The notes beneath the pieces are model-generated. The model saw only the letters and a program-made list of their open reading frames with translations. It searched no databases and was not told the origin of the DNA. DNA of 64,000 nucleotides. It comes from Tetraselmis striata (Eukaryota; Chlorophyta; Chlorodendrophyceae; Chlorodendrales; Chlorodendraceae). This document shows positions 21,519 to 55,085 of the stretch, piece after piece. The DNA is taken from the NCBI GenBank assembly GCA_006384855.1, contig VCJN01003303.1:49942-113941 (forward strand), in the 5' to 3' direction. How positions within the stretch are numbered: the stretch's first letter is position 1; each line of letters starts with the position of its first letter. Position numbers and translations under genes: made by a program.

Positions 21519-23103
21519 TCATTTCAAAGTTGAGTTTGGTTTTGCCAATCGGGAGCGAACGGAGAGAGCGGTGGATTGACGGAGAAGGGGTAGCGCCAGG
21601 TCATGAAGGAGGCACCGGGAAGGCCACCGTTGCGGAGTCCTGTTGGACTTGGAAATGGCGGAGGGGGGGATGTGGCCAAAGAAGAACCATGCACCAGGTG
21701 AAGGAAGAACGTTGGGGTCGATGTAGTCCAGAACGACGTCGGAGTTAGTGGCCCAGCCACCTTGGTAGCGAATGTGGGACAACAGAACTCCGATGGCGTT
21801 GGCGGCAGACGCTGCTCCCTTTCGAAGGCTGTGTGAGGTCCATGAAGTGCCGGCGGGAGGGGCAGCACCGACAAGACGGACGGATGTAGACAGCCAGTCC
21901 GACATTGTAGCGGCGGTCCAAGGTTTTGACTGCTCGCTTGGGGTGACCGCCCAGAAGTTTATTTCAGCCAAGGCAACAGTAACCAGGGGGACAGACTGTA
22001 CGTTGTCGATGAAGTGGTGCAAGAGACGTGCAACTCGGGGGTGTTCTGACACCGGAAGGAGAAGCACGCGCATGTCGTCGGGTCCCTGTCGGCTAGCGCT
22101 ACCTTTCTCGCGGTACACTTGCAGGGTAATGTTATAATCGTCGACATGCACATCCCGCACTCGGCAGGAGACGCCAGTACGTCCCCTGGCAAAGGGCATG
22201 AAGCTGACAACCGAGGCCACGAGGGCTCGGAAGTCGTGCTGGTACTCGGTGGTGGGAGCAGACACAATCAACTCGGCCTTCTCGACGAAGCTGTAAACTA
22301 CATCAGCAGGCAGAGGAACTCGCAAAGGGGCGGCTTCTAGACGGCGCTGCCGCAGCATCAGCCCACGCCTAGCTGCCGTAGGGTGTAGGCTGTCCTTGGC
22401 GATTGGGTAGAGGTTGTGTAGCTCGAAGAACGTGTTGATTGCAGGTAGGTAGGGTTGCAATGACTTAGCTCCAATGTGCCCTCGCTCACCAATCCAGGCA
22501 ACGTACCGGACGACGATAGCAGTGGTCGCCTCCAGCGGGCTGATGTTATCGGAGTCGTGGCAGAACTCCGCGAACTGAGACGGTCTGCCGGCGTAGCTCT
22601 TGAGTGTCTGAGCGGTGAGAGAGCTGGAGAGCAGGTCGAGCGTCCGCTGTCCTAACTCGTCTGAGCCGAAAGCATCCTGCGGTCGAGATCGCAGTGAAGC
22701 AGCCCAGGGAGCGACAGCTCGGGCTCGTCAATTACGTAAGTGTGTCGTTTTACCGACAGAGTACCAGTGGGCGACTACTGTTTGCAAAGTACTCGGCAGC
22801 AGCGGTTAGGTTCCCGGCGGTTGGCCGGTAGTCGCTGGACGGGTTTGCAGTAGGACCAGTACGGGTTTGCGGGGCTAGGTTCAGGTAAGAGGGCCGCCCC
22901 GCGCGCCCTTCGCGCTCGTAGCGCCTGTCACGCGAGTAACGTACACGCGCGAAGCTTGGTCGTTGCGAAGCAGTTGTAACACGCAGTGTGACAACCGACG
23001 GACGCATTGATGAAATGGTATGGGAGGCGGTTGGTTGAGCCGCCATGTGCAGGTGTGCGGATGGTTGAGCCGCACTCGGCTGTAGCTGTAAGAAGCGCCG
23101 CAC
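21519..23103 (-). pseudogene. Tyrosine recombinase, copy 2, frameshifted
   Basis: The catalytic half (22460-21519) is open and carries SHSLRKGAASAA (HxxR motif), YQGGWATNSD and the presumed nucleophile in VLDYIDP. It also holds FARGRTGVSCRVRDV, where the first catalytic Arg should lie. The N-terminal half (about 23103-22750) leaves frame near 22765, where copy 1 continues without interruption. The enzyme class cuts and rejoins DNA through a covalent tyrosine bond and integrates circular element DNA. This copy could not give a full-length enzyme unless the frameshift is a sequencing error. Confidence 0.8.
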
Positions 23104-39115: not shown

Positions 39116-39327
39116 CGGTGTGGGGCGCCTTTCGTCGGAGCTGCTGGAGCTTTGCGAGGCCACCTTTCGGTGACCGCCGCAAAGCGCACCCTTGCAGCTC
39201 AACGACGGGTTGAGCGCCATGTGTCCGGACCTGACCCCCCACCTTACAGACTTCATTTAGACCTTCCTCGGTGCGGCGCTTCTTACAGCTACAGCCGCGT
39301 GCGGCTCAACCATCCGCACACCTGCAC

Positions 39328-40777
39328 ATGGCGGCTCAACCAACCGCCTCCCGTACCATTCCATCACTGCGTCCGTCGGTTGTTACACTGCGTGTCACAA
39401 CTGGTTCGCAACGACCAAGCTTCGCGCGTGTACGTTACGCGCGTGACAGGCGCTACGAGCGCGAAGGGCGCGCGGGGCGGCCCTCCTACCTGAACCTAGC
39501 CCCGCAAACCCGTACTGGTCCTACTGCAAACCCGTCCAGCGACTACCGGCCAACCGCCGGGAACCTAACCGCTGCTGCCGAGTACTTTGCAAACAATAGT
39601 CGCACCTATGGAACTCTGTCGGTAAAACGACGCACTTACGTAATTGACGAGCCCGAAGCTGTCGCTCCATGGGTTGCTTCACTGCGATCTCGACTGCAGG
39701 ATGCTTTCGGCTCATACGAGTTAGGACAACGGACGCTCGACCTGCTCTCCAGCTCCCTCACCGCTCAGACACTCAAGAGCTACGCCGGCAGACTGTCTCA
39801 GTTCGCAGAGTTCTGCCACGACTCCGAGAACATCAGCCCGTTGGAGGCGACCACTGCTAATGTCGTCCGGTACGTTGCCTGGATTGGTGAGCGAGGGCAC
39901 ATTGGAGCTAAGTCACTGCAACCTTACCTGTCTGCAATCAACACGTTCTTCGAGCTGCACAACTTCGACCCAATCGCCAAGGACAGCCTACACCTCACTT
40001 CGGCAAGGCGTGGGCTGATGCTGCGGCAGCGCCGTCTGGAAGGTTGCCCCTTTGCGAGTTCCTCTACCTGCGGATGTAGCTTACCGCTTCGTCACAAAGG
40101 CCGAGCTGATTGTGTCTGCTCCCACCCCAGAGTACCAATACGACTTCCGAGCCCTCATGGCCTCGGTTGTCAACTTCATGTTCTTTGCCAGAGGACTTAC
40201 TGGCGTCTCCTGCCGAGTGCGGGATGTGCATGTCGACGATTACAACATTACCCTGCAGGTGTACTGCGAGAAAGGCAGCGCTGGCCGACGGGGACGCGAC
40301 GACATGCGCGTGCTTCTCCTTCCAGTGACCGAGCACCCCCGAATTGCACGTCTCCTGCGCCACTTCATCGACACAATACAGTCTGTCCCCCTGGTTATTG
40401 TTGCCATGGCTGAAACGAACTTCTGGGCGGTCGCCCCGAGCGAGCAGTCAAAACCTTGGACTGCCGCTACAATGTCGGACTGGCTGTCTACAGCCGTCCG
40501 TCTTGTCGGTGTTGTCCCTCCCGCCGGCACTTCATGGACCTCACACAGCCTTCGCAAGGGAGCAGCGTCTGCGGCCAACGCCATCGGAGTGCCATTGTCC
40601 CACATTCGCTACCAAGGCGGCTGGGCCACTAACTCCGACGTCGTTCTGGACTACATCGACCCCAACGTTCTTCCTTCACCTGGCGCATGGTTCTTCTTTG
40701 GCCACATCGCCCCCCTCCGCCACTTCCAAGTCCAACAAGACTCCGCAGCGGTGGACTTCCCGGTGCCTCCTTCATGA
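39328..40777 (+). pseudogene. Tyrosine recombinase, copy 1, one frameshift
   Basis: The first frame is open to about 40041 and the second from about 40046 to 40777. A one-base insertion (GAAGGTTGCCCC here against GAAGCCGCCCC in copy 2) separates them. The catalytic half holds the HxxR motif SHSLRKG (His and Arg codons within 40544-40555), GGWATNSD and the presumed nucleophilic Tyr at 40652-40654 in LDYIDP. The N-terminal half includes a SAM-like DNA-binding region (LTAQTLKSYAGRLSQFAEFC). The start is uncertain; 39328 is the first ATG of the frame. Confidence 0.82.
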
Positions 40778-41161: not shown

Positions 41162-41863
41162 GCCGAAATACATCGCGGCCAGGATGGTCTTCGTCTCACT
41201 TCTCAGCCGCTTTTTCCCTGTGTTAAGCGCAGTACTGCCGTTAAGTACTCGCGACGCCGTCCGCTCCGCCGAGCCGATCGCCCGCCAGCCCGCCAGCCCG
41301 CCAGCCCGCCAGCCCCCCAGCGCCAGCCAGTCAGCCAGCCAGCCGATCATCAGCACTCCAACGGCCCTCCTTCGGGACTAGCCGCGCAGCTTTGCGGGTT
41401 TTACCGGTTGTCGCGGTTGCGTGTGTCGGCGAGGATCCCGCGATCGGTCGCGCGATTAGGGGACTAACCGACTAATTTATTGCATGCGTCGAGCGCCCCC
41501 CCCCCCCCCACCCCCCTCCCGCCCCGCCGACAGGTCAGAGGACAGAAAAGGCCAGGACAGGACGCCACGAGGTCGGGACAGGATTCTTGGTGCAACCCGG
41601 CTCCGTTTCGCAGGCAAGATTGCCCCAGCCCGCCCGCCCGCCCTCCCGCGGTCAAACCGGCAGGCCTTAGCGCCCCATCGCGTAAAAACTAGTCCTTAAC
41701 CGAGCGGTATCCGCCCCTTGCTGTCGGCCCTGTCCGGCCGGCGACTCGGGGATCCGTAACCCTTGTACCTCGCACTAGGGAATGTTTGCCAGGACCCTAC
41801 CGCATTACCGAGTTTTCCCGCCTGGTATAACATAACCGTAGGTCCGGTAGGGTTGGCCCCGAT
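41162..41863. other. SINE stub, CCAG repeat and spacer
   Basis: The first about 24 bp after the recombinase element (reverse complement CCTGGCCGCGATGTATTTCG) continue the SINE interrupted at 37939. A CCAG/CCCG tandem array fills about 41279-41345, and a C-run lies near 41500. The rest, up to the LINE, may hold the LINE promoter; no gene was recognised. Confidence 0.55.
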
Positions 41864-43652
41864 ATGGGCAACCGCGCGCCATCGGGTGCAGCCGTCATAG
41901 TGACGGGGGTTCGCCCTTGGACGGTTGGGCACCTGGCTGAGGGCGCTGGGGCGTCCCTGCGTTGTGTGTGTTGTTGGGGGGACCCGTCGCCACTACCTGC
42001 CTTTTGGAGCCGCGTCGATCGGCCGTTTAATGGCCGGCCCTCGGCCATTCCGAAGATCGATCGTGTGTTGCAGCGGGATGGGCTAGTGCGCTTTGATGTG
42101 TATTATACCCAAGGGCAGGGTGCGCATGTCCGCGAGCGTTTACAACGTTTTGCGGGCCGGTGGGGGTGGTACTTGCGGGAACACCGCTCGTACTGGGATC
42201 GCCACGCCGCCCGCCCTCCCCCTCCCTCCCACCCCTTGCCCTTTCCCTTCCCTCCCATGCCCGCCCACCTGTGCGTTGCAACGCTTAATGTGAATGGGTT
42301 GTCTTGTAAGGTGGAGGATGTTGGCGCGCTGCTGATCGAGCGATCTGTAGATGTTCTGCTCGTTCAGGGGACCACGGTTAGGGCGACCGATATGCGAGTG
42401 CGTTTTAATGGGTACTCTGACTACTATTCGTTCGGGGACCGCGTTGCATCGGAACGTGGGTGTTGTGTGTTAGTCCAATCGCCGTACCGGGCGCGGGCAG
42501 TCGGCGCGCCCCACCCATGCTGGACCTGTGTCCGGGTGGGGGGAGGTTGCAATGACTCCGCGGCCACTATATTTATCTCGGCCTATTTGCCCACCGGCTC
42601 ACAGGGGGAACCGTATCGGGACCGCCTGCGCGAAGAGTTGGCGCGGCTTCGTACGAGTTATCCGAGGGATATGATCGTGGTGGGGGGGGGATTGGAACAT
42701 GGATGAAAGGGAGTTGACAGCTCTACTCAGGCGTTGGCGGTGCCTTCCCGGCGGTAAGCCCATGTGGCCGCGGGATGCATCGGCGCGCGAACGCGGTACT
42801 TGTCGGAGGGGCAGCTGCCGCGTTCTCGACCACTTCATCGCATGGCCTCCCACCATAGGCCCTCCCCCCCCTCTCTCGCCCTCGGCATGGGTGGACTACT
42901 CTTGGGACACCTCCGATCACTTCCCTGTCCTGTCTTCTTTCCCCATGGGCGCCATCCGTGAGGATGCTTGTCCACCTCCCCTGCATGAACGCTTGTCTGC
43001 AAGGTCCATTCCCAAACCGGCCCACGGTGACTCTCCCTCTGAATGGCCCAAGCCGTTCCACGATTTTGTCACCGCTAATCCGTTCGCGGTGCTCACCCCT
43101 CTACATGACCCACCTGTAGACGGCGGGCCCTCGGGAGGGGAGGGATCCCTAGACACCGGCGCCGACCACTTTATCCAGGCAATATGGTCGGCGGCGCGTG
43201 GGGTAGGGGTTGTTACCAAGCCCAGGCGTCGTGGCCTAGGGCCGCCGCTGCAACGGTCTATCCTAGGTGCGATTAATCGTCGGTGCGTGGCCTTTATGGC
43301 GTGCCGGGGGACTAGGGGCCCTCGGGATGCCGCTCTAGCGTCGGCACATTATGCTGCTGCACGGCATAGGGTCCGGACACTAGTACGTAATAACCGTCGC
43401 CGCCAGAGGGAGCGGGCCGTGCTAAAAGCGGTTCAGGATTTTAAGAAGGGTGGTGGGAGACGGGAGTTCTGGAAGTGGGCGCGCTCTCTCCGTAAGGGGC
43501 AGGGTTCATTCGAGGGCGCGAACGACCAGCCAGTACGCGCTCCGGTATCGGGGGTACTTCATACCGCGCCGGGCGAAATCAATGCGTGCTGGGCGCGGCA
43601 CTATCGGGAGCTTTTGCGTGACCCCCACCCCCTAGCACAACGGGTTGCGATA
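41864..43652 (+). pseudogene. LINE ORF2, endonuclease part, frameshifted
   Basis: The ATG at 41864 opens a region with a possible RNA-binding fold before a proline-rich spacer. TLNVNGLSCKVEDVGALLIE starts the APE endonuclease at about 42275. The usual catalytic QE is QG here (LLVQGTTV, codon GGG where GAG is expected). The DxN motif appears as GDWNMDERE only if one G of the run at 42682-42690 is removed. TSDHFPVLSSF (near 42915) holds the terminal catalytic Ser-Asp-His. The downstream linker is rich in Arg and Ala. The endonuclease nicks target DNA to prime reverse transcription. This copy looks inactive. Confidence 0.8.
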
Positions 43653-43660
43653 TACCGTGC

Positions 43661-44194
43661 TGACTCGGGCGCTCAGTGGTAGAGCGAGTGACTACGAGTA
43701 TGTAAGTCGGCGGCTCGAGACCGGCCGGGCCGTGAGAGCTTAGTCGTCACTGCATACTCGTACCGGTACTGTCTCATCTCGTAACAAAGACGCAGTGATT
43801 CAGTACCGGGGTACGTCACGAATCGAATGAGGACCTGAAAAATGGGCCAACGTGCGGATAGGCGGGCTGGTCCCAGCTCGCCTAGGCCGTCTGTCCGGAT
43901 TACGAGTACCTGTACCCGTAATACCGGCAAAACCTTTACAAGGTACATCCCTTGTCCGCTCGGTAGAGCGGTCGTCTCGTGTGCGAGAGGTACCGGGTTC
44001 GATTCCTGGCCGATGTATTTCGGCAATATCGGCCCGGCGTGTCCCGGGTTTACTCGGTTGATGCATTAGCCCTTCGGGGTTCGAATGAGGCAATGGTCTA
44101 TGGGCTATGCCAGACCTACGACTGCAGTTGGCGCACGAGGTCAAGTGCTGGGGCGGCTTCGGCCGATGTCCCGGGGCGAACTTTACTTTTACTT
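43661..44194 (+). mobile_element. Composite tRNA-derived SINE inserted in LINE
   Basis: A 534-bp insertion flanked by TACCGTGC (43653-43660 and 44195-44202). Two tRNA-like units can be read. The first has GCTCAGTGGTAGAGC (A box) and GGCTCGAGACC (B box, one mismatch). The second, near 43958-44006, has GCTCGGTAGAGCGG and GGGTTCGATTCC. A third B-box-like GGGTTCGAATGAGG lies near 44077. The 3' end is a run of TTTAC/TTTTAC units, as in SINEs that borrow LINE machinery. Neither unit folds into a full cloverleaf, so these are SINE promoters, not tRNA genes. Confidence 0.78.
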
Positions 44195-44202
44195 TACCGT
44201 GC

Positions 44203-46449
44203 GGCGTGGGAACACCGCCACGGTACATCGCGAACCATTGCCCCCGCACTTAACGGGATTAATGGGCATATAACCTGGGAGGAACTAGTCAAGGCTCTTA
44301 GGCGTTTAAAAAATAATAAGGCCCAGGGGCATGATGGGATCACTGCAGAGGCTTTGAAATTGGCAATATACGCCCCAAATAGCCATTTCGGCAAGGCATT
44401 GCTGGCCTTAATTAACGGGATATGGACTAAGAACTATATCCCCCAGCAGTGGCGTAGCTCGGCCATAGTATCGGTGCCCAAGAAAGGCGACGCGACCGTT
44501 ATGGACAATTATAGGGGTATTTCGATTATGGGTGCCGCTATGAAACTCCTTATGACCGTCATTTCCCAACGCTTGCAATACGTCTGCCAAGCTAAAGGGA
44601 TAATCCGCCGTTGGCAAGCGGGTTTTATGCGGAATGAGGAGGGCCCCATGCAAGTCGCCAGCTTGTTCGATATCGCGGCTCGTCATCAAGCGGCAGGTCT
44701 ACCCACGTACGCGGGTTTTATTGACTTTAGGAAGGCATATGACACCGTACCTCATGAGCTTTTATCCCTAAAACTACAAGCCATAGGAGTTACGGGTCAT
44801 ATGCTTACCTTCATTAAAACTTTATACAGGGATAGTATGGTACGGGTCAAGACAAGGGTGGCCCCGGGAACATTATCAGACCCCATACCCATAGAGCGTG
44901 GCCTCCGACAGGGATGCCCCGCTTCCCCCATCCTATTTAACATATTTATCAACGATATATTCGATGGGGTAGAACATCTAGGGTGTGATGTACCCCAGGA
45001 TGTGATGGGGTAGAACATCTAGGGTGCACCGACACACTAGCGGCAAGGCAACCACTAAGGGTGCCAGGTCAGTTATACGCGGACGACGCAGTAGGTATCA
45101 CAGGCTCGTTCGAAAATCTGCATGCCATGTTAGCCCACTTCTCGCAGTGGGCGGAGGACCATTTTATGGGGTTTGGGGTACTTAAGTGTGGGGTGATAGC
45201 ATTAGGCCGATACTCCGACGAGACCGCGTTACGCGAACAAGCTGCCCGATGGCAGCTTGGGGGGGAACGGGTACCGGTTGTAAATGAATATAGGTACTTG
45301 GGTACGGTCATTAAGTCGGATTTAGGTATGCAACACATAGTAGACGACCGGGTTAAGAAGGGTAAACGCGCTATTGAGGCGCTCGATTCGGTATTAGTCG
45401 GTGGACGGGACATAATTCCTATTAATGTGCGTGTGTCGGTTTTTAAAACATGTGTACTGCCGGTTTTAACTTATGGGTGTGAAGTATGGGGCATGGATAG
45501 AACTAGCGGCGCAAATAAATTACAAACCGTACTCAATCAGTGCTTGCGGTGCCTCATTGGGGTAGGTAAAAACTCCCCTGGGGTGGCCACTGCACCGATG
45601 ATGCGGGAATTGGATATTGCGCCCATAGAGGCTACGGCCGCTGCGGCACGGGCTCAGGCGTTCCTTAAAGCATCCGACTTGAATACATGTATAATTCATT
45701 TAGTAGATCAGCCAAGTCGGGCGCGCCCTAACACGTGGACGTCATGGACTGTGCGGTGGTTAGATCGACTAGCTAGGGCGAACGTAGGGCTAGCTGAGGG
45801 GGCGCACCTTCCACTTGAGTGGAGGTCACTAGCCGTGCGCGATGCCCCTAAACTAGTAAAGGCATTGGTGTGGGCGCGTTACGAATCGTCGGCATCGTTA
45901 GCACGCAATAACACCTGGGGTATTTATGTCCATGCGTCTTATGCGTCAAACCCGTTGCCACAGTACGGTGTGGGTGTCCCCGCGGGGGTGGTGGCCGGGT
46001 TGCACATTATGATACAATTACGCACCCAAGTATTTCCCACTGCCCGCCGATTGGCCCGGATTCATGCCATGCCTGAGCGGTTCCTTGAACACTGCCCTGC
46101 ATGTGGCGGAGGTGAATCTGAGACTATCGAACATATGTTGGTGGAGTGCCCGCGGTGGGGGTATCATCATCATAATTTTGGGTTGTTAGTTCCGGAGTTC
46201 AGGGATTTTATTAGTAGTCAGGTTATTGCGTCAACACCGGAGGACTTAACTGCCTTTATTTTGGGCGGGGTCCCCTCCCCCTCCCTTCACGGCGCCTTGG
46301 ATTTTACTGGGAATGGGCAATTTTTCCAGCTATGGCGTCGGGCCCTCCCTCACGTTGCACATGTATCGCACTCCCGAAATGCTTTGCTCCGCGGGTTGGG
46401 GCTTGCCCCAACTCGCATTACTCGAATGGGCCGACGCCCAAACGGGTAG
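44203..46449 (+). pseudogene. LINE ORF2, reverse transcriptase part, frameshifted
   Basis: The RT begins near 44260 (HITWEELVKALRRLKNNKAQ, then GHDGITAE), with SVPKKGDATVMDNYRGISI, GFIDFRKAYDTVPHE (first catalytic Asp) and RGLRQGCPASPILFNIFIND. After the 41-bp duplication it resumes in another frame with LYADDAVGITG, the YADD active site at about 45074, then the thumb and a long C-terminal region. CPACGGGESETIEHMLVECP near 46097 is a C-x2-C-x9-H-x4-C zinc finger typical of LINE C-termini. The stop is at about 46447. Confidence 0.88.
44963..45026 (+). repeat. 41-bp tandem duplication in the RT coding region
   Basis: The 23-bp string beginning GATGGGGTAGAACATCTAGG occurs at 44963 and again at 45004, a period of 41 bp. 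It lies between RT motifs B and C and shifts the frame, since 41 is not a multiple of three. Confidence 0.9.
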
Positions 46450-46768: not shown

Positions 46769-47011
46769 AGTGTCATGTGAACTATCGTCTCGATGAATTG
46801 TACGGTCTGATATTAATCGGTATCTTGAGTACCAGTATCTTGAAATCGATGCCCATTCTATTTCATAACATTTTATTACTGGTCATATATTGGTATTGAT
46901 GTAGAGGTTTGATTACATCGGGCTATTCTGTCACTGTCGTAGCGTCTCGGGAAAAAGGAAGAACTGTCTTGATAGGGGAAGGGAAGCGCCGACTTACTGC
47001 GCTTAACACTG

Positions 47012-47844
47012 TCCGGAAACCGGGTACGACGTCGCCGATAGTCCCTATCGCCTCCTACGAATGAGTTTGTGTCTCGCACGAATGTACGGCTGTCTCGCTC
47101 GCTCGTCAGTCTAACTCGACCGAGTGGCACGACAAAGCAAGCCCACTCGACACAACTAGCTCGCTGTGTACACTACGCTCTCGACGCTCTCGTCACGCAT
47201 GCTCACGATGCGCCATCAGGCATGTGAAAACATGAACACACGAGGGGGACCTCACGACAGTCACAATGTCCTTACATGTGTTCTCGCAGCAAGAGAGGCG
47301 TCCACGCGCAGTCCAAAGGCAGGTCGCGCCTCAGGGAGCGTTCACGAGTCAGCAGAAAACACAAACTGGAAGCTGCGGGTGGCGCCTTGCTGCTAACAAA
47401 CTCGCTGGCTACGGGTGCTACTCGCTGCCCTCGGCTCAACAACTGTCAATAATTATGTAATAATATCGTGCATACTACTACGAACGGATGGCTCTCCTGC
47501 ACCGTAAGGCACGGAAGTGCCAGCCGTATCTTACGTTATCTACGACGGAAAGCACGGTGGAATACTACTGTGGAATACTAAGAAACGTACTATGTCTTGG
47601 TCATCACGACGTGTCTTGCTCTCGCTCACGTGGATGATATGCTCGAGCTCCGTCTCCACACACATTTGGCAGCTCCAGATAAGAGTCAGAGCTTCCGTTG
47701 ATATCGGACCGCCAGCTAGGCCATGGTGCCTCGCGATTGGTCCTACTGCATTACTGCGGCTGGTACACAGTGGCTGCCATGCGCGTACATACGCTGCCGA
47801 CTGTCTGAAAATACTGCCACGCTGATCACGCGTACGCGATGACA
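47012..47844 (-). repeat. A2 long direct repeat
   Basis: An 833-bp repeat matching 53532-54369 with few differences. In sense orientation it begins TGTCATCGCGTACGCG and ends CCGGTTTCCGGA. A frame of about 100 codons occurs in both copies, but it has no recognisable domain and is not called a gene. Confidence 0.9.
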
Positions 47845-47904
47845 ATTGTCGTAGTGTCTCGGGAGAAAAAGGAAAAACTGTCTTGACAGGGTGAGGGTAT
47901 GCTC

Positions 47905-48699
47905 CTATCCCCCCCCCCAGCTGTGGAACACCGTGCCAGCAGCTGGCTCACACGCCTGGCTGACACGCCTCGCAGATCCACTCCTCGCTTGGGTCAACGT
48001 GAATGACTCCCGCTGGGACACAGGTCGTGTGCCATGGGTTGCCACACTTGTCACATACGACCATAGGGGCTGCCGCGCTGTCTTGCGTTCGGCCTCACGT
48101 CGCCGCGCCCCTGCCTCCTGCAGCCTACGCTGCCTAGCCTTGCTCATGATTTGGACACCCATGAACTGGCTTGTCTTGCCACGCCTCCGCTTCAGAAACA
48201 GCATCCTGAGCTCATGCAAGGCTGCGCCCTGCAAGTCGAGCTCTGCGGCATCGCGTTCCGACATGGCCTTAGTCAGGCGCAACTGAGCTGCGCGAACAAC
48301 TGCCTTCTCAGCCTCATCAGTCAGGCTCAGGGTGGCAACCCAGCCCTCCCAATTGCGCTGATGTGCATAGGCCACTGCGATGCGCAGCATGACTGACACT
48401 GAGGTGCTGGCACAGACATTGCCAATGGCCTGCAGCTGCTCCCCCTCAGTGCGGCCCAACTCGGTGCGGGTGTAAAGCCGTGGGTGCACATTCAAACACC
48501 TCTCCCTGATCCGAGCAGGGGTTGGCACATAGCGAGGCAGGTTGCTGCCTCGCACACGCAGCATGCCAGCGCCAGGCTGTCCAGTCGCATCCAGCACCCG
48601 CGTCACGGTGTCCGTCCTAGCAGGGAACTTAGGCAGAACCCTCATGGGCTGCCCATCCTCGTTGAGTCTCCTCATACGTGTGTGCGGCCTATCGTTGGT
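47905..48699 (-). pseudogene. Methyltransferase C-terminal part (motifs IX-X) and basic tail
   Basis: This frame continues the methyltransferase after the 990-bp insertion. It holds a target-recognition-like segment (RVLPKFPARTDTV, PTPARIRERCLNV), then GRTEGEQLQAIGNVCASTS. The QLQAIGN core fits C5-methyltransferase motifs IX/X, which close the AdoMet pocket. A basic, probably helical tail follows (LFLKRRRGKTS, KARQRRLQEAGARRREAERK). Near 48070 the natural reading appears to pass into another frame that encodes a PHD-like module; the frame annotated here runs on to 47905 without known motifs. Removing the insertion and one target copy joins it in frame to the upstream ORF. Confidence 0.7.
47948..48064 (-). 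pseudogene. PHD-finger-like module, shifted frame
   Basis: One frame over from the main frame, the minus strand reads APMVVCDKCGNPWHTTCVPA, then a short loop, then EEWICEACQPGV and a TGA at 47948-47950. The pattern C-x2-C-x4-H-x2-C-x18-C-x2-C, with Trp two residues before the last pair, is that of the second half of a PHD finger. The first Cys pair is not seen in any frame just upstream. PHD fingers read histone H3 tails; in an element this could guide integration, which is inference. Confidence 0.6.
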
Positions 48700-48734
48700 A
48701 AGGCTCCGCATCAAGAATCAATAAAAGATCGAAT

Positions 48735-49010
48735 CATGGTGCACCAGACAGATCGTGAATCGCACCAAGAATCAATATTTAGGCGCGGAATTTACTGGTG
48801 CACCGATATTTATTGGGCTGTAATATTCGGTGCACCGATATTTAGGCGCGGAATTTACTGGTGCACCGATATTAAGGTACCGGTATTTACTGGTGCACCG
48901 ATACTTCGGTGCCGACATTAACTGATGCACCAACATTTAACCGCATATTTTACCGATGCACCAATATTTATCTGCGTAATTGAATCAACGACTGGTGCAC
49001 CAAGAATCAA
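48735..49010. repeat. GGTGCACC palindrome array, block 1
   Basis: About eight units at a spacing of 31-39 bp. The typical form is GGTGCACCGATATTTA, then a variable GC-containing centre, then ATTTACT. Units vary (GATGCACC, CACCAAGAATCAA), so they are diverged tandem copies, not a CRISPR array. Block 2 lies at 49428-49660 in the same element. Confidence 0.8.
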
Positions 49011-49427
49011 CCGAGAATCAGCCACAGTGGGAGACATGTGTCATCGACGGCTTCGGTCGTGACGATGCTTAGAGAGGGTTGTACTCATTGATGATTCCCG
49101 CGGACGAAGGGGGAGGGCAGGGGCCGCAATCTTTTTCCCAAGTTGTATGGGATTGGTCCCATACATGCTTCTTAGTACTTAGCGCATCACACATGCTGCA
49201 GTAATGTGGTGTGCGTCCTGTCCACTTGATGCATGGATCAAAGTGTAATAATAATATGATGATGAAAGCCCATATGTAATAAAAACTCCTCGTACTTGTA
49301 CGAGTAATCATAATATGATGATGTTAATTGAGGCTCATTTTCATCGCATGAACTTGACACAATTTCCTTTCTTCCAGATTAACTTCAAATTCGCGGAGTA
49401 AAATCGATTAATACTGCATATATCACC

Positions 49428-49660
49428 TCTGGTGCACCAATATTTTCGCATAATTTTCTGGTGCACCAATATTTACACACGGAATTTACTGGTGCACCGA
49501 TATTTAGACACGGAATTTACTGGGGCACCGATATTTATGTGGTGGATTTACCGGTGCACCAATGTTTAGCAACCCAATTAAATCGATTAAAGATCGGATC
49601 AACTGGATCATGCACCAATTCTTGATCTTTTTTTTCCGTCATGCACCAATTCTTGATATT
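49428..49660. repeat. GGTGCACC palindrome array, block 2
   Basis: Further copies of the same unit (GGTGCACCAATATTTACAC, then GGAATTTACT), at least six, decaying to ATGCACCAATTCTTGAT near the right end of the TIR element. Confidence 0.8.
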
Positions 49661-49728
49661 TACCTCCTGAGGCTTGATGCGGAGCCCTAATCGTTGGTGG
49701 CTAACTGCAGCGCAAGCTTGCCACGCGA

Positions 49729-52700
49729 TTACTCGTCCACTATCTGGGCCAATGGCACTGGCGGGGGCCGATGGAACTCCCGCTCCACTGCGTCATAGTA
49801 GCTATTAGTGAACATGTTTGTCCACCAACAGGCTGTCCGCATAGTAGTGTCTCCACACAGGTGGGGCCAATGCACATTGGGGCGCCCAAACACTCGCCTC
49901 AGAAAGTCATAGGCTTGAGTGACTTCTGGGCTGCGCCTACCATCTGGCGCAGCGCACACATTCTCAATAATGTATCCGAACTGAGCTGGGGCTGAGGCCC
50001 ACTCAACAAAGCCTCTGCGCCTAGCCATGAGGTACTGCAAGTCCACCAGCATAGCTGCTACAGGCACGATGGTACCTGTCCGCGAGCCTGTTATGCCTAG
50101 CTGCATGCCCAGCGGCGATAGATGGCAGGGCGGTTCAAGTGTTACAAGGTCTACTTGGCCCATATAATCCAACGCTAACTCAGCGGTGAGCTGCGTGATG
50201 TCATGCCCCACAGCATCGCCTAGATCAAAGGCTCGCTGCATGACCTTGTCTGGCAAGCGCTCCGGCCATAGATCATGCATTAACTGCAGCTGCTTGCGCT
50301 CCTCATTCGCCTCAATGAGCTGCAAGTTCTCAAAGTGGACTCCCCCCTCAACCATCCTGAATGACACGGTGCCCATGCCAGAGTAGCCTGAGATGGCTCG
50401 CACCGCCCCTGCCTTGCCTCCTGCTGCATCAAGAGGAAAGACATAGCACTTGTTGGGGTCACAGTGCGGCAGCGCTCCGATGGCGTCCAAATCCGCCTGC
50501 GTGTAACCGCTCAACGGCAACTGTCTGCCCGCTTGCACTGCTGCTTGGCGTTGCTCATAGTACGGCGGCACTGGCCCCTCGCGTGCATAGGCGGTAGCGG
50601 TTGCGCCGTCACAGTCACCGATCCCCATGCAGCATGTGCCTATCCCATCACCTTGTTCTGTGCTGGTGGAGTGTGTGGCACCAAGAAAATCGAATACCGC
50701 ACTCCCCCCCCCCCCCCCCCCCCCAACACAGACCACTGGCTGCGGTGTTGGGACCACTTCGAGATGCAGACTCTCCACATCAGTGCCCAGAGTTCGGAAC
50801 GGCACCACTGCTTGCGGGCCGTGCAGGCCGCGCGCCACGTCCAGCAAGTAGCACGCAGTGCCATCGCTCAAGATAGTAAGGGATAGCGCTCGCACCACCG
50901 ACGTGTCCAGCAACACATCGGGGAGCGCAGGGTTGTCCAAGATCACCCAGCGCGGCCACGGTAGGCTGATCTCCCACGTTGTGCCACGGTTGAAGGTAAG
51001 TGGCAGTGGCTCCACAACCATGTCACACTGCGACACACCTGGCACGATGCCGCGCATGCGGACGTGGCCAATGCTGGGCTGAATGCCCTGCTCCTTGCAC
51101 AGTCTCTGGTAGAATGGGCGGCTGATGCCCGCGATGTCACAACCAGTGTCCACCAGCGCTGCGCTGATCGGCATGTCGGCTAGGTGCAGCGCCGTGTGCG
51201 CCATGTCAATCAGCGCTGTGCCCGGGCGATCAAAGCCGAGCTGCGCCTTGCGTGTGTAATACTCTGCCTGCTCCGCGCGGCGCTGCACCAAAGCTGCATC
51301 ATCCCGCGCAAGGTGCTGCCTCGCAGCGAGCGGCAACACGCGTAGTGTGATCACCTGACCACAAGGGTCGCCATTCGCGGCAGCCGTCGTCGCGGCGGTC
51401 GCTGCAGGCGCATCCGCGTCGGTGCTCAGGCTGTACGGCTGCGGCTGCGGCGGCCCAATGGGGGATGGCACATACGGGTCTAGGTGAATGCCCAACACGC
51501 TGCGCACGGCATGGCGTAACACGGCACTCATGTCTTGGTAGCGGAAATCAGTTAAAGTCAGCGGCGCTGACGCTAGCACACGCTTCACTGCTCGCGCTAA
51601 TGCGGCCTCACATGCGACATGATACTCGTCACGCCGATCAACATAGCCGTTCAACACCTCGGACAGTGCCGTTCGCCAACGGGTGGCCGCAGCAGCTGCT
51701 GCATTGCCACCTTCACACAACATCTTCATGTTGACGTTGGGGCAGGTCAGATGCTCTAAGGCATTGCGCCATGCATGCAGCAGCTGCTGCTGGCGCACAT
51801 CGAGCTGACTCCTGTCCATGACCTGCTCGTCAGACAGTGGCGGGCCAAACGACGCAGGCGCGCTGCCCGGCGTGCTGAAGTCCGGCTCAAAACCGCGCGG
51901 GCGATGTGCAAGTCGCTCCCGCGTCTCCGACCATCCTGGGCGCTCCATGCGTGCGCCTTGGTCGTTAGCAATTCCTGGGGGCAGCACCCGCGGGCGCCCA
52001 AGCCTTCGAGTGGCTGCAGGGGCCTGTGGTTGCACAGCGCTGGGCGGTGCAGCGGCAATGGCGGCGCGTGACTTGCGCCCCGAACGCCCCTTGACACCAT
52101 ACAGGAGGGTGCTCAGCCGCGCAGCAACTGCCTCACCACCGCAATGGCTGCCCTCTTCCTCAGCGGCATGCTCGACGGCTCGGATGGCCACCATAGTCGT
52201 GCCATCCTCCGTGCCAAGGTAGTAGGCGTCCTCCCATGACTCATGCTCGGGGCTCTCACCACCTGCTGCATGCATGACGGCGCCTTTGTGCTTGGGCTGG
52301 CGGCTGCGCCCATTGCGCTGCTTGCGGGAGTGCTTGCCCTCGCCATCTGGCTGCCCGTCGGCATGTGCATCACCAGCATGGGCTGCGCCCGGGGGCTGCT
52401 GCTTGTCCAGGTTCGGCTTCTGCAGCTTGGCAAGAAAGGCAGTGCGCCGCTGCAGGTCCATGGGGCGGTACGAAAGGCGCTTGCGCAGCCGCTGGTTGAG
52501 CGGCTGCGGGCACTGCGTGTAGGACGTGTGCCCTGCATCGGCCTTCTGGCAGTTGCAGCACTCGCTCCTGCGCGACTCCTCAGACTGGTATTGCTGCTGC
52601 CTACTGGCGCCGCCCCGCCACTGGGGTCCACTGCCTTGGCCAGCATGGGCATGCGCAGCATGGCTCTCCTCGGGCGACTCATAACCGGCGTGGGTGGCAT

Positions 52701-53517
52701 GTCCCGCCGCCGCCCGCCCCTCACGGGCGTTCTGCAACACCTTGCGGTCACGCGCACGCAGCGGGCATGATCGCTGCGCATGGTAGGGGTCGGGGATGTG
52801 CAGAGCAGCACACTCTTCACAGCGTGGCCGAAACTGTCCGTTTACATTGCGGCCCTCACGCCCCTCTCTAACCTCTACGTCATAGGGTTGGGTACTAGAC
52901 AAAGCGGCACGCAACATGGTCCTATCGCTGTCGCCTGCCATGTGCGCAACACGCTCCAGCGCCAGCGCGTCATCTGCCTCGCTCTCGCGTTGCTCTTGCT
53001 CGATCTCCTCGACTATGCGCGTCATGTGGCCTATGCGGTCCACACAGCGGTCGCGAGAGAGCTGACTCAGCGTGCACCCTGTCTCGAGGTCCAGGCGGTC
53101 CTCTACTAGCCTCTGCCTGCGGATGCGCAAGGCAGGCACGGAGGCCCAAGGCTCCAGCACTCGGCTAAGGAAGCGGCGGTTCAGATCATGCGTCGTGCTG
53201 GTCCTGACTTTCGCATGCGCGCGGTGCATCCTCGCGGCAAGCGTCGCTGGCCGCTCCATGAAGCCGTCGTGCGTAAGGCTGGTCCATAGGCGCTCGTGTA
53301 CATCCAGCGCGGTGACCTTAGACATTTCTGCCTTGAAGGTGTCCAGCTGCACCTTGTATGCAGCATCTCGCGATGCTGCATAGATGCGCTCCTCTGCTGC
53401 ACGTGCTGACGCAGGCGTCTCAGGGGGTGTGTAGGCGACCTCCGAGCCATCGTTGTCACCGCCCTCGTCTCCATCACGAGCGACGACCTCGCGCCGCCCA
53501 CGGGCAGCCGCCAGCAT
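49729..53517 (-). CDS. Gag-like / aspartic protease / C5 DNA methyltransferase polyprotein (N-terminal part)
   Basis: An open frame of about 1,260 codons from the ATG at 53515-53517. In order: an acidic and helical Gag-like region; a knuckle-like CEECAALHIPDPYHAQRSC near 52810 and CCNCQKADAGHTSYTQC (C-x2-C-x6-H-x5-C) near 52530; a Lys/Arg-rich linker; a retropepsin-like domain with ALVDTGCDIAGISRPFY near 51150; a Gly run coded by a poly-G tract near 50713; and a C5-cytosine methyltransferase. Methyltransferase motifs seen are I (ISGYSGMGTVSF, about 50345-50400), IV with the catalytic Cys (LEPPCHLSPLG, Cys codon 50125-50127), VI (IIENVC, about 49960-49978) and an MRTACWWTN motif VIII-like segment. 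The frame stops at 49729-49731, about 40 bp before the TIR insertion; motifs IX-X lie beyond it. Active-site residues are present. Confidence 0.85.
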   Translation of the reverse strand: MLAAARGRREVVARDGDEGGDNDGSEVAYTPPETPASARAAEERIYAASRDAAYKVQLDTFKAEMSKVTALDVHERLWTSLTHDGFMERPATLAARMHRAHAKVRTSTTHDLNRRFLSRVLEPWASVPALRIRRQRLVEDRLDLETGCTLSQLSRDRCVDRIGHMTRIVEEIEQEQRESEADDALALERVAHMAGDSDRTMLRAALSSTQPYDVEVREGREGRNVNGQFRPRCEECAALHIPDPYHAQRSCPLRARDRKVLQNAREGRAAAGHATHAGYESPEESHAAHAHAGQGSGPQWRGGASRQQQYQSEESRRSECCNCQKADAGHTSYTQCPQPLNQRLRKRLSYRPMDLQRRTAFLAKLQKPNLDKQQPPGAAHAGDAHADGQPDGEGKHSRKQRNGRSRQPKHKGAVMHAAGGESPEHESWEDAYYLGTEDGTTMVAIRAVEHAAEEEGSHCGGEAVAARLSTLLYGVKGRSGRKSRAAIAAAPPSAVQPQAPAATRRLGRPRVLPPGIANDQGARMERPGWSETRERLAHRPRGFEPDFSTPGSAPASFGPPLSDEQVMDRSQLDVRQQQLLHAWRNALEHLTCPNVNMKMLCEGGNAAAAAATRWRTALSEVLNGYVDRRDEYHVACEAALARAVKRVLASAPLTLTDFRYQDMSAVLRHAVRSVLGIHLDPYVPSPIGPPQPQPYSLSTDADAPAATAATTAAANGDPCGQVITLRVLPLAARQHLARDDAALVQRRAEQAEYYTRKAQLGFDRPGTALIDMAHTALHLADMPISAALVDTGCDIAGISRPFYQRLCKEQGIQPSIGHVRMRGIVPGVSQCDMVVEPLPLTFNRGTTWEISLPWPRWVILDNPALPDVLLDTSVVRALSLTILSDGTACYLLDVARGLHGPQAVVPFRTLGTDVESLHLEVVPTPQPVVCVGGGGGGGSAVFDFLGATHSTSTEQGDGIGTCCMGIGDCDGATATAYAREGPVPPYYEQRQAAVQAGRQLPLSGYTQADLDAIGALPHCDPNKCYVFPLDAAGGKAGAVRAISGYSGMGTVSFRMVEGGVHFENLQLIEANEERKQLQLMHDLWPERLPDKVMQRAFDLGDAVGHDITQLTAELALDYMGQVDLVTLEPPCHLSPLGMQLGITGSRTGTIVPVAAMLVDLQYLMARRRGFVEWASAPAQFGYIIENVCAAPDGRRSPEVTQAYDFLRRVFGRPNVHWPHLCGDTTMRTACWWTNMFTNSYYDAVEREFHRPPPVPLAQIVDE

Positions 53518-53531
53518 GTGGGCCCTCACAA

Positions 53532-54369
53532 TCCGGAAACCGGGTACGACGTCGCCGATAGTCCCTATCGCCTCCTACGAATGAGTTTGTGTCTCGCACG
53601 AATGTACGGCTGTCTCGCTCGCTCGTCAGTCTAACTCGACTGAGTGGCACGACAAAGCAAGGCAGCCCACTCGACACAACTAGCTCGCTGTGTACACTAC
53701 GCTCTCGACGCTCTCGTCACGCATGCTCACGATGCGCCATCAGGCATGTGAAAACATGAACACACGAGGGGGACCTCACGACAGTCACAATGTCCTTACA
53801 TGTGTTCTCGCAGCAAGAGAGGCGTCCACGCGTAGTCCAAAGGCAGGTCGCGCCTCAGGGAGCGTTCACGAGTCAGCAGAAAACACAAACTGGAAGCTGC
53901 GGGTGGCGCCTTGCTGCTAACATAACTCGCTGGCTACGGGTGCTACTCGCTGCCCTCGGCTCAACAACTGTCAATAATTATGTAATAATATCGTGCATAC
54001 TACTACGAACGGATGGCTCTCCTGCACCGTAAGGCACGGAAGTGCCAGCTGTATCTTACGTTATCTACGACGGAAAGCACGGTGGAATACTACTATGGAA
54101 TACTAAGAAAAGTACTATGTCTTGGTCCTCACGCCGTGTCTTGCTCTCGCTCACGTGGATGATATGCTCGAGCTCCGTCTCCACACACATTTGGCAGCTC
54201 CAGATAAGAGTCAGAGCTTCCGTTGATATCGGACCGCCAGCTTGGCCATGGTCCCTCGCGATTGGTCCTACTGCATGACTGCGGCTGGTACACAATGGCC
54301 GCCATGCGAGTACATACGCTGCCGACTGTCTGAAAATACTGCCACGCTGATCACGCGTACGCGATGACA
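53532..54369 (-). repeat. A1 long direct repeat
   Basis: An 838-bp repeat equal to 47012-47844 apart from scattered substitutions and a few small indels. It presumably carries the promoter for the polyprotein that begins about 15 nt downstream. Confidence 0.9.
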
Positions 54370-55085
54370 TCACCGGTACAAGTAATGTTAAGATTCTAGT
54401 TTGACCGTTTGAGTGTTAGCTACCTGTACTCGCAGTAAACGCGTACCGCTTGGACTTCCCGGCGCTAGCGACACCATGTCCACCGCCGCTAGCACTGTGA
54501 GATTCAGATGTGACGCAAGTGTGCCCTACTGGTGACGAACGACGACAATACGGGGACGATACGGGACGGACGAGGGACGTGGATTTCATACCCAGTAGCG
54601 ACGACTATCGCGCGCGACCTGTAAAGTACTATATGAATTTCTCGTTTCGATAATTTCATCAAATTGATATGCGCACGCGGGCTCGCGTGTCGCGCGCCGA
54701 CGCGGAGTACCCCGGCTAAGTACAGGCGGCTGCACGTACTCGCTGCACATCGCTGCACATCGCTGACCCTGCGGTGTGCGGCGATGTGCGGCACGACGGG
54801 CGGAGGTGTGGGCGGATGTAGGTGGTACGGTAGGTGGTAGGCGGTAGGTGGTGTTCGTAGGTGCGCGTTTTAATGCAGCCGCCCTAACTGCTGATGATTG
54901 TGTAACGCCCCAGCACGCACATGAAGTACGGGGTCGCCTGCGGTCACCGCCGCTCACCGCTGAACCAAGCGCGGACAGCCGCGCACTCGCATTTGTGCTC
55001 CCTGCCGGTGGTGGGCTACATCCACCCCAACTCTCAAACCCCCCCCCCCCCCCCCCCCCCCCCGCGCGCGCGCGCGGCAGCAGGC
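54370..55085. other. Spacer with poly-C tract
   Basis: No gene recognised. A C-run at about 55040-55062 directly precedes a CG dinucleotide run and the ATG of the zinc-finger gene. Confidence 0.4.

Follow-up and report, generated by a model that had tools for sequence, protein, structure and literature searches.

A probable non-autonomous Ty3/gypsy-type retrotransposon family with a C5 methyltransferase-like domain and split repeats in Tetraselmis striata

Background

Retrotransposons that carry a DNA methyltransferase (MTase) are already known, and one of them, KnitGypsy-Dnmt3 from Klebsormidium nitens (de Mendoza et al. 2018, PMC5890265), is of the Gypsy type and has DIRS-like repeats. A 2025 survey places DNMT3s in retrotransposons of streptophytes and dinoflagellates (PMC12344493), and an N4C/N6A methyltransferase is reported from a DNA transposon of Ectocarpus (PMC12477816). 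Here we describe an element found in a 64,000-nucleotide stretch of Tetraselmis striata DNA (contig VCJN01003303.1; C2666:49942-113941 in a 224-Mb assembly of 2903 contigs), which is referred to below as the window. The element is very probably a damaged copy of a non-autonomous Ty3/gypsy-type family that descends from an MTase-encoding ancestor with reverse transcriptase (RT) and is mobilised in trans.

By its description, KnitGypsy-Dnmt3 is like the window family in having a C5 MTase within a Ty3/gypsy polyprotein together with DIRS-like repeats; it is described as typical of Gypsy in domain content, whereas the window family is from a chlorophyte and lacks RT and integrase (PMC5890265). The main text of that paper contains neither the word PHD nor the word protease, and no mention of a self-complementary primer site was found (PMC5890265). 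SymbioDIRS-Dnmt3 resembles the window family in its A-coding-B-A-B repeats and its C5 MTase (located in Pol in SymbioDIRS), but has RT and a tyrosine recombinase, whereas the window family has 4-bp target site duplications (TSDs) and relatives with a gypsy-type integrase (PMC5890265). Elements of the type of polyprotein P0003 have an MTase region 71% identical to that of the window family and homologous gag, protease and PHD parts, and differ by carrying RT, RNase H and integrase. TR-GAG/LARD-type elements are non-autonomous gag-coding long terminal repeat (LTR) elements without pol enzymes and depend on a helper; the window family differs from them in retaining an MTase and in having split repeats. 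The Tf1/Sushi/Tcn1 elements are not known to carry an MTase and have ordinary LTRs. In these chromoviruses reverse transcription is self-primed, the primer site pairing with another part of the element itself (PMC6317226).

Among open-licence papers, we found none on Tetraselmis elements of this kind, none on a palindromic circle junction and none on a PHD finger in gypsy LTR retrotransposons of Chlamydomonas. The following appear to be new as far as this literature goes: occurrence in a chlorophyte, retention of the MTase in families without RT, a PHD at the terminus, a primer site complementary to the element itself, and a palindrome at the junction.

Results and discussion

A family without reverse transcriptase

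The polyprotein of the window element contains zinc-knuckle-like and DTG motifs followed by MTase motifs I, IV (PPC), VI (ENV) and IX, named by eye, all of which an earlier note on this DNA had listed; motif X lies past a stop codon and a miniature inverted-repeat transposable element (MITE). The direct repeats of about 835 bp and the B segments described in that note are also real: the repeats D1, D2 and D5 are 98–99% identical, and A2 is flanked by the short segments B1 and B2, giving the split direct repeats of a PAT/DIRS-like plan. Between A1 and A2 there are 13 mismatches over 832 aligned bases (6 are transitions) and, in addition, 11 gap columns.

The A repeat was matched at 29 places in the assembly, with all 24 candidates scored, and sixteen 10-kb stretches on thirteen contigs, comprising every A-matching contig besides that of the window, were examined. 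Neither in the window element nor in the copy L009 (C2722) was a match to RT or integrase found, the PHD end alone matching the RT-integrase-PHD part of P0003. RT is absent between MTase and PHD in the window, L009, L011 and L014, as well as in L013, which is covered from just behind the MTase. Alignment to relatives and the PHD matches show that in this family the stretch behind the MTase is fused directly to the terminal PHD. L009 has an open, uninterrupted RT-less frame of 1753 amino acids (aa), and its two A repeats are identical at all but 4 of 867 aligned bases. Judged by these copies, the A family does not possess the RT and integrase of an autonomous Ty3/gypsy member. Since the other copies, one of them with this open frame, also lack both enzymes, the loss is a family trait, and a deletion confined to the window copy was rejected. 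Moreover, since RT-less copies with differing TSDs exist (window, L009 and L014), the RT-less structure spread after the deletion. The earlier note had proposed an RT-less element with its own MTase, to be abandoned if most copies proved to carry RT or a recombinase; the copies fetched bear the proposal out.

Two candidates for an RT of the family were rejected. The RT at L011:457-2679, with 26% identity to P0003, interrupts the MTase in the C31 copy (L010/L011); as that MTase resumes at L011:3801, the RT belongs to a nested gypsy element of another kind. The gypsy fragments in L016 (23–33% identity) are on the opposite strand, one past the end of the copy and one before its start.

The argument of the earlier note that 4.7 kb of internal sequence leaves no room for RT did not hold as to length. 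In L009, A1 and B1 lie about 6.3 kb apart, and compared with L009 the window copy lacks about 1.68 kb adjoining A1 (the end of A, the self-complementary primer site, the leader and the start of gag), so that 4.7 kb is not the original internal length; the longer interval still contains no RT. The window copy is damaged elsewhere too: its polyprotein runs into the MTase as far as motif IX, and a stop, a MITE of about 1 kb and the remaining MTase follow. The core content of the earlier feature list stands, with the corrections that 48702-49687 is a MITE and that a PHD-finger frame was overlooked (Table 1).

RT-bearing relatives and a second RT-less lineage

With the MTase region as query, five of 7998 scored candidate proteins were matched: four RT-bearing polyproteins (P0003 to P0006) and a T. 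striata gene model (P0007, TSEL_041977), which shares a 921-residue identical run with this genome. The gag-protease query matched P0003 and P0007 alone, and an MTase profile query matched one further T. striata model, in each case among the 8000 candidates sharing most words. P0003 to P0006 combine the MTase region with RVT_1, rve, H2C2 and PHD domains, as seen by scanning in P0003 and P0006 and from precomputed domains and alignment in P0004 and P0005; no tyrosine recombinase domain was found by the scan of the former two or among the precomputed domains of the latter two. Within the order gag-protease-MTase-RT-RNase H-integrase-PHD, the succession protease-RT-RNase H-integrase is that expected of Ty3/gypsy descent, and homology between the four relatives and the window family extends to either side of the deletion.

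A search of the assembly with the window protein, in which 36 of 497 candidates were scored, yielded 58 matches. At least 20 were MTase matches at 43% identity, and at least 10 of these sit in open frames of 2760–2970 aa; the count of RT-bearing relatives is a lower bound. One such copy, C1657, has identical A1 and A2 over 1054 bases, B1 and B2 at 98.5% identity, the TSD CTTG, and a frame ending in the integrase end and PHD. RT to integrase was read directly in this copy, as a stretch that corresponds to P0003 residues 1794–2562 at 57% identity, while other copies of its family were assessed by frame length and MTase match alone. C1657 combines the Gypsy polyprotein, C5 MTase and DIRS-like repeats of the KnitGypsy-Dnmt3 type, a combination from which the window family departs by having no RT. 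Its B1-A2-B2 unit gave at least 43 matches (40 of 203 candidates scored), namely 14 full units, 4 B1-A2, 21 single A, 2 A-B and 2 fragments. The identity of the full units (97–100%), together with the shared repeat plan, points to an apparently recent RT-bearing family in this genome.

A second RT-less lineage is represented by C2553 (L039) and C553 (L040), in which P0003 residue 1726 joins residue 2670, RT and the integrase core being gone. These copies retain gag, protease, MTase, the integrase end and PHD, with the post-MTase stretch and the integrase end in one frame that contains stop codons. At the 3' end, over a region that extends into the beginning of A2, they are 90–91% identical to the C1531 copy (L047), which carries an RT at 80–87% identity to P0003 (L035). 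Judged from these sequences, C1531 and C2553/C553 look like a helper and its non-autonomous partner. That two different deletions both spared gag-protease-MTase and PHD is suggestive, the number being small.

Ends, primer site and circle junction

A 4-bp TSD was found in 6 of the 8 A-family copies examined with both ends (window, GTGA; L009, TTCT; L014, TAAA; L015, GTTA; L016, GAGG; L018, CCGT) as well as in C1657. This count leaves aside L010/L011 and L013, in which both ends are not present, and the fragments in L019–L024. A short TSD of fixed length and TG...CA ends are as in Ty3/gypsy elements, and together with the rve-bearing relatives they argue for a Ty3/gypsy integrase rather than a tyrosine recombinase.

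Side observations concern three of these copies. In L012 (5894-6872) and L017 (2048-4655), an inverted inner piece, gag by eye in the former and MTase in the latter, lies beside the element end in an autointegration-like arrangement. In L014 (1754-1870), about 114 bp of A2 are left and run straight into the terminal bases of B2; since the TSD TAAA is intact, A2 was probably lost before or during insertion.

At the B1|A2 junction, the two ends of the element (...GACA and TGTC...) meet across two intervening bases, forming the perfect palindrome GACA-AT-TGTC. The same junction was seen in the window, L009, L011, L013, L014, L039, L040 (with changes just outside), L046 and L047, and the palindrome is common to the A family, C2553/C553, C1657 and the RT-bearing C1531. 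The A2|B2 joint, on the other hand, differs between copies.

Immediately behind A1 (0–5 bases), a run of 16–22 nt is perfectly complementary to a site within A in all five copies tested, which belong to two families. The site is near position 480 of A in L009, L010, L014 and L016 and at 355 in C1657. In two control sets of 310 and 56 windows, the longest such runs were 9 and 10 nt, respectively, so that no control came up to 16 nt. The primer-site sequences differ between the A and C1657 families with complementarity kept; as the four A-family copies are related, these amount to two independent cases. A primer site complementary to the element's own sequence is the Tf1-like arrangement, and reverse transcription is probably primed by the element's own RNA.

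By the G-run ahead of B1 and the primer site behind A1, the equivalent of a retroviral LTR would be B+A. The integrated form A-internal-B-A-B may then represent a two-LTR circle opened at GACA-AT-TGTC, where integrase-processed ends would abut, and a variable A2|B2 joint is as expected of an end-joined circle junction. L016 (A, part of gag and B, with a TSD) and L018 (A-B with a TSD) fit as related products of this circle model.

Selection

Comparison with L009 gave Ka/Ks values of 0.30–0.40 for gag (codons 171–700 of L009; p 1.1e-6 to 1.3e-3) in all four pairs tested, and of 0.37–0.47 for the whole frame in three pairs. For the MTase, Ka/Ks ranged from 0.31 to 1.20 over 15 pairs. Amino-acid differences fell on invariant MTase columns in 8 of 71 cases versus 20% expected (p 0.04, L013 excluded), a p value that is optimistic because the copies are related. 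At the level of codon comparison, selection is clear on gag and weak on the MTase; gag may be read as needed in cis or preferentially. Divergence between A1 and A2 is 1.6% for the window copy against 0.5% for L009, and silent divergence between the two copies is about 4%, so that some of the divergence dates from a time when the family was still mobile. Silent divergence between A-family copies tends to be lower in the MTase (0.02–0.09) than in gag (0.06–0.12), with overlapping ranges.

Origin of the family and alternative explanations

We propose that an internal deletion removed RT, RNase H and integrase from an RT-bearing ancestor and left gag, protease, MTase and the PHD end. The resulting family would encode its own gag, protease and MTase and would receive RT and integrase in trans from RT-bearing relatives with the same junction, the MTase having a putative role in methylating the cDNA or the inserted copy. 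That the window family depends on another element is the most likely interpretation. The earlier view of it as a parasite of another element that brings its own MTase is accordingly upheld as to the missing RT and the MTase, and its parasitic part ranks as this most likely interpretation.

Several observations weigh against this explanation. No copy with window-type A repeats plus the family's RT was found, so that no cognate helper is known; the C1657 family has 43% identity to the window in the MTase and no BLAST similarity in A and B, and the RT-bearing C1531 copy, with nearly the same ends as C2553/C553, has stops and frame breaks. The PHD frame is −1 relative to the MTase in the window, L009, L011 and L014 and is itself broken in L013; no slippery site for a programmed −1 shift into it was seen by eye, though the overlap is open. 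Two of the eight copies lack a 4-bp TSD (L012, one base off, and L017, with the inverted piece at its end), and a longer palindrome pattern also occurs at one unrelated place (L015:5660). The L019–L009 gag pair, excluded for its shortness (60 silent sites), has a Ka/Ks of 0.75, and the MTase values against L009 are 0.48, 1.16, 0.50, 0.49 and 0.35, with p <0.05 in one of the five pairs.

It is conceivable, if somewhat doubtful, that the family consists of deletion products in which a relic of gag, protease and MTase was kept by chance and the MTase is inactive. Such an origin would agree with the broken state of most fetched copies, with the out-of-frame PHD and with purifying selection on the MTase that is weak or none, but would not account for the spread of the RT-less structure to sites with different TSDs, the young L009 with its open frame, the clear selection on gag, or the second lineage in which a comparable deletion also retained gag-protease-MTase and PHD. 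It is partly compatible with our preferred explanation, because descent from an RT-bearing ancestor and mobilisation in trans need no active MTase.

As to the nature of the MTase-like domain, the window protein as a single query had no match in Pfam, NCBIfam or PDB searches, and L009 matched PF00145 with E 0.002 and 18.1 bits, under the gathering cut-off of 22. Profiles of the relatives give support for a C5 MTase. All six aligned relatives matched PF00145 (best E 3e-5), and the MTase profile matched HhaI with E 0.0016, chance matches in the same list (e.g. PACSIN1) beginning at E 0.05. Using hhalign against a profile of five bacterial and phage C5 MTases (E. coli Dcm and four from phages), a probability of 88% and E 3e-6 were obtained, with PPCQ and ENV paired; of 13 segments of the relatives' polyproteins, the 2 spanning motifs IV–VI matched (94%) and the other 11 reached at most 0.6%. 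Motifs IV, VI and X with the catalytic Cys, which characterize C5 MTases, are present. We consider it unlikely that the domain is no longer a DNA methyltransferase and serves RNA methylation or a structural role. In favour of such a change are the low PF00145 score of L009, a motif I that looks degenerate and, in the window copy, a PPCQD (motif IV) without its QD; against it, PC, ENV and IGN are invariant across the six aligned sequences, and L009, C31 and L014, as well as L017 over its covered part, have intact motifs.

Finally, that the element is a true PAT/DIRS tyrosine-recombinase element minus its recombinase is hardly credible: the label PAT-type given in the earlier note fits the split direct repeats (A-internal-B-A-B) but not the mechanism, as the copies have 4-bp TSDs where none would be expected and TG...CA ends, and the four RT-bearing relatives have an rve integrase and a gypsy-type RT, with no tyrosine recombinase domain listed for them.

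Beyond the descent of the window family from an RT-bearing ancestor, a broader account can be offered tentatively. Split-repeat MTase gypsy elements might constitute a distinct integrase-dependent type, self-primed, with an LTR equal to B+A and a circle opened at the palindrome, whose RT-less offspring, of at least two origins, would keep gag-protease-MTase-PHD as parts that cannot be supplied in trans, the MTase acting in cis on its own template.

Features of the window element and its neighbours

The coordinates of the element are collected in Table 1. The MITE has inner repeats containing GGTGCACC and is Mutator-like by eye, with inverted ends and a 9-bp duplication. Adjoining the element is a long interspersed nuclear element (LINE)-like element (41831-46446, + strand) with a PF03372 endonuclease (E 2.9e-4, under the cut-off) and RVT_1 (E 6.3e-22) in neighbouring frames. 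Tyrosine-recombinase-like frames are located at 39235-40410 (+ strand; PF02899, E 1.6e-6) and 21522-22727 (− strand; PF00589, E 0.007, under the cut-off), and these perhaps belong to Crypton- or DIRS-type elements.

Table 1. Features of the methyltransferase-bearing element, in window coordinates
Feature	Position	Strand	Basis
Whole element, A1-internal-B1-A2-B2	46935..54369	-	ends and TSD located, repeats compared
TSD GTGA, left copy	54370..54373	-	flank comparison
TSD GTGA, right copy	46931..46934	-	flank comparison
A1 repeat, begins TGTCATCGCG; final ~30 bp of A gone in the window copy	53532..54369	-	
Deletion point; ~1.68 kb of L009 (L009:1855-3535) absent	53527..53532	-	alignment to L009, junction
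Polyprotein frame P0001, 1281 aa: gag with zinc knuckles, DTG protease, MTase motifs I-IX	49732..53574	-	
C5-MTase-like domain, first part (motifs I, IV, VI, IX), bounds approximate	49732..50575	-	
C5-MTase-like domain, last part (motif X, AIGNVCASTS) past stop and MITE, bounds approximate	48320..48690	-	
MITE within the MTase; inverted ends, 31-bp inner repeats; 9-bp duplication ACCAACGAT by eye	48702..49687	.	
PHD-finger-like frame, -1 relative to the MTase frame	47957..48082 (about)	-	69% identity to P0003 C-terminal PHD over 42 aa
G-run, polypurine-tract-like, immediately ahead of B1	47909..47918	-	sequence, by eye
B1, upper bound by eye	47847..47908	-	
B1|A2 junction palindrome GACAATTGTC	47841..47850	.	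1 in the window versus 0.04 expected
A2 repeat	46976..47844	-	repeat comparison
B2, ending CTACGACA	46935..46975	-	

Implications

The repeat anatomy suggests a testable account of DIRS-like split repeats in an element of the integrase type, a feature that de Mendoza et al. noted and for which no explanation by them was found (PMC5890265). By telling apart the parts that a helper can lend (RT and integrase) from those that are kept (gag, protease, MTase and PHD), these families amount to a natural experiment on the purpose of a DNA MTase in a retrotransposon.

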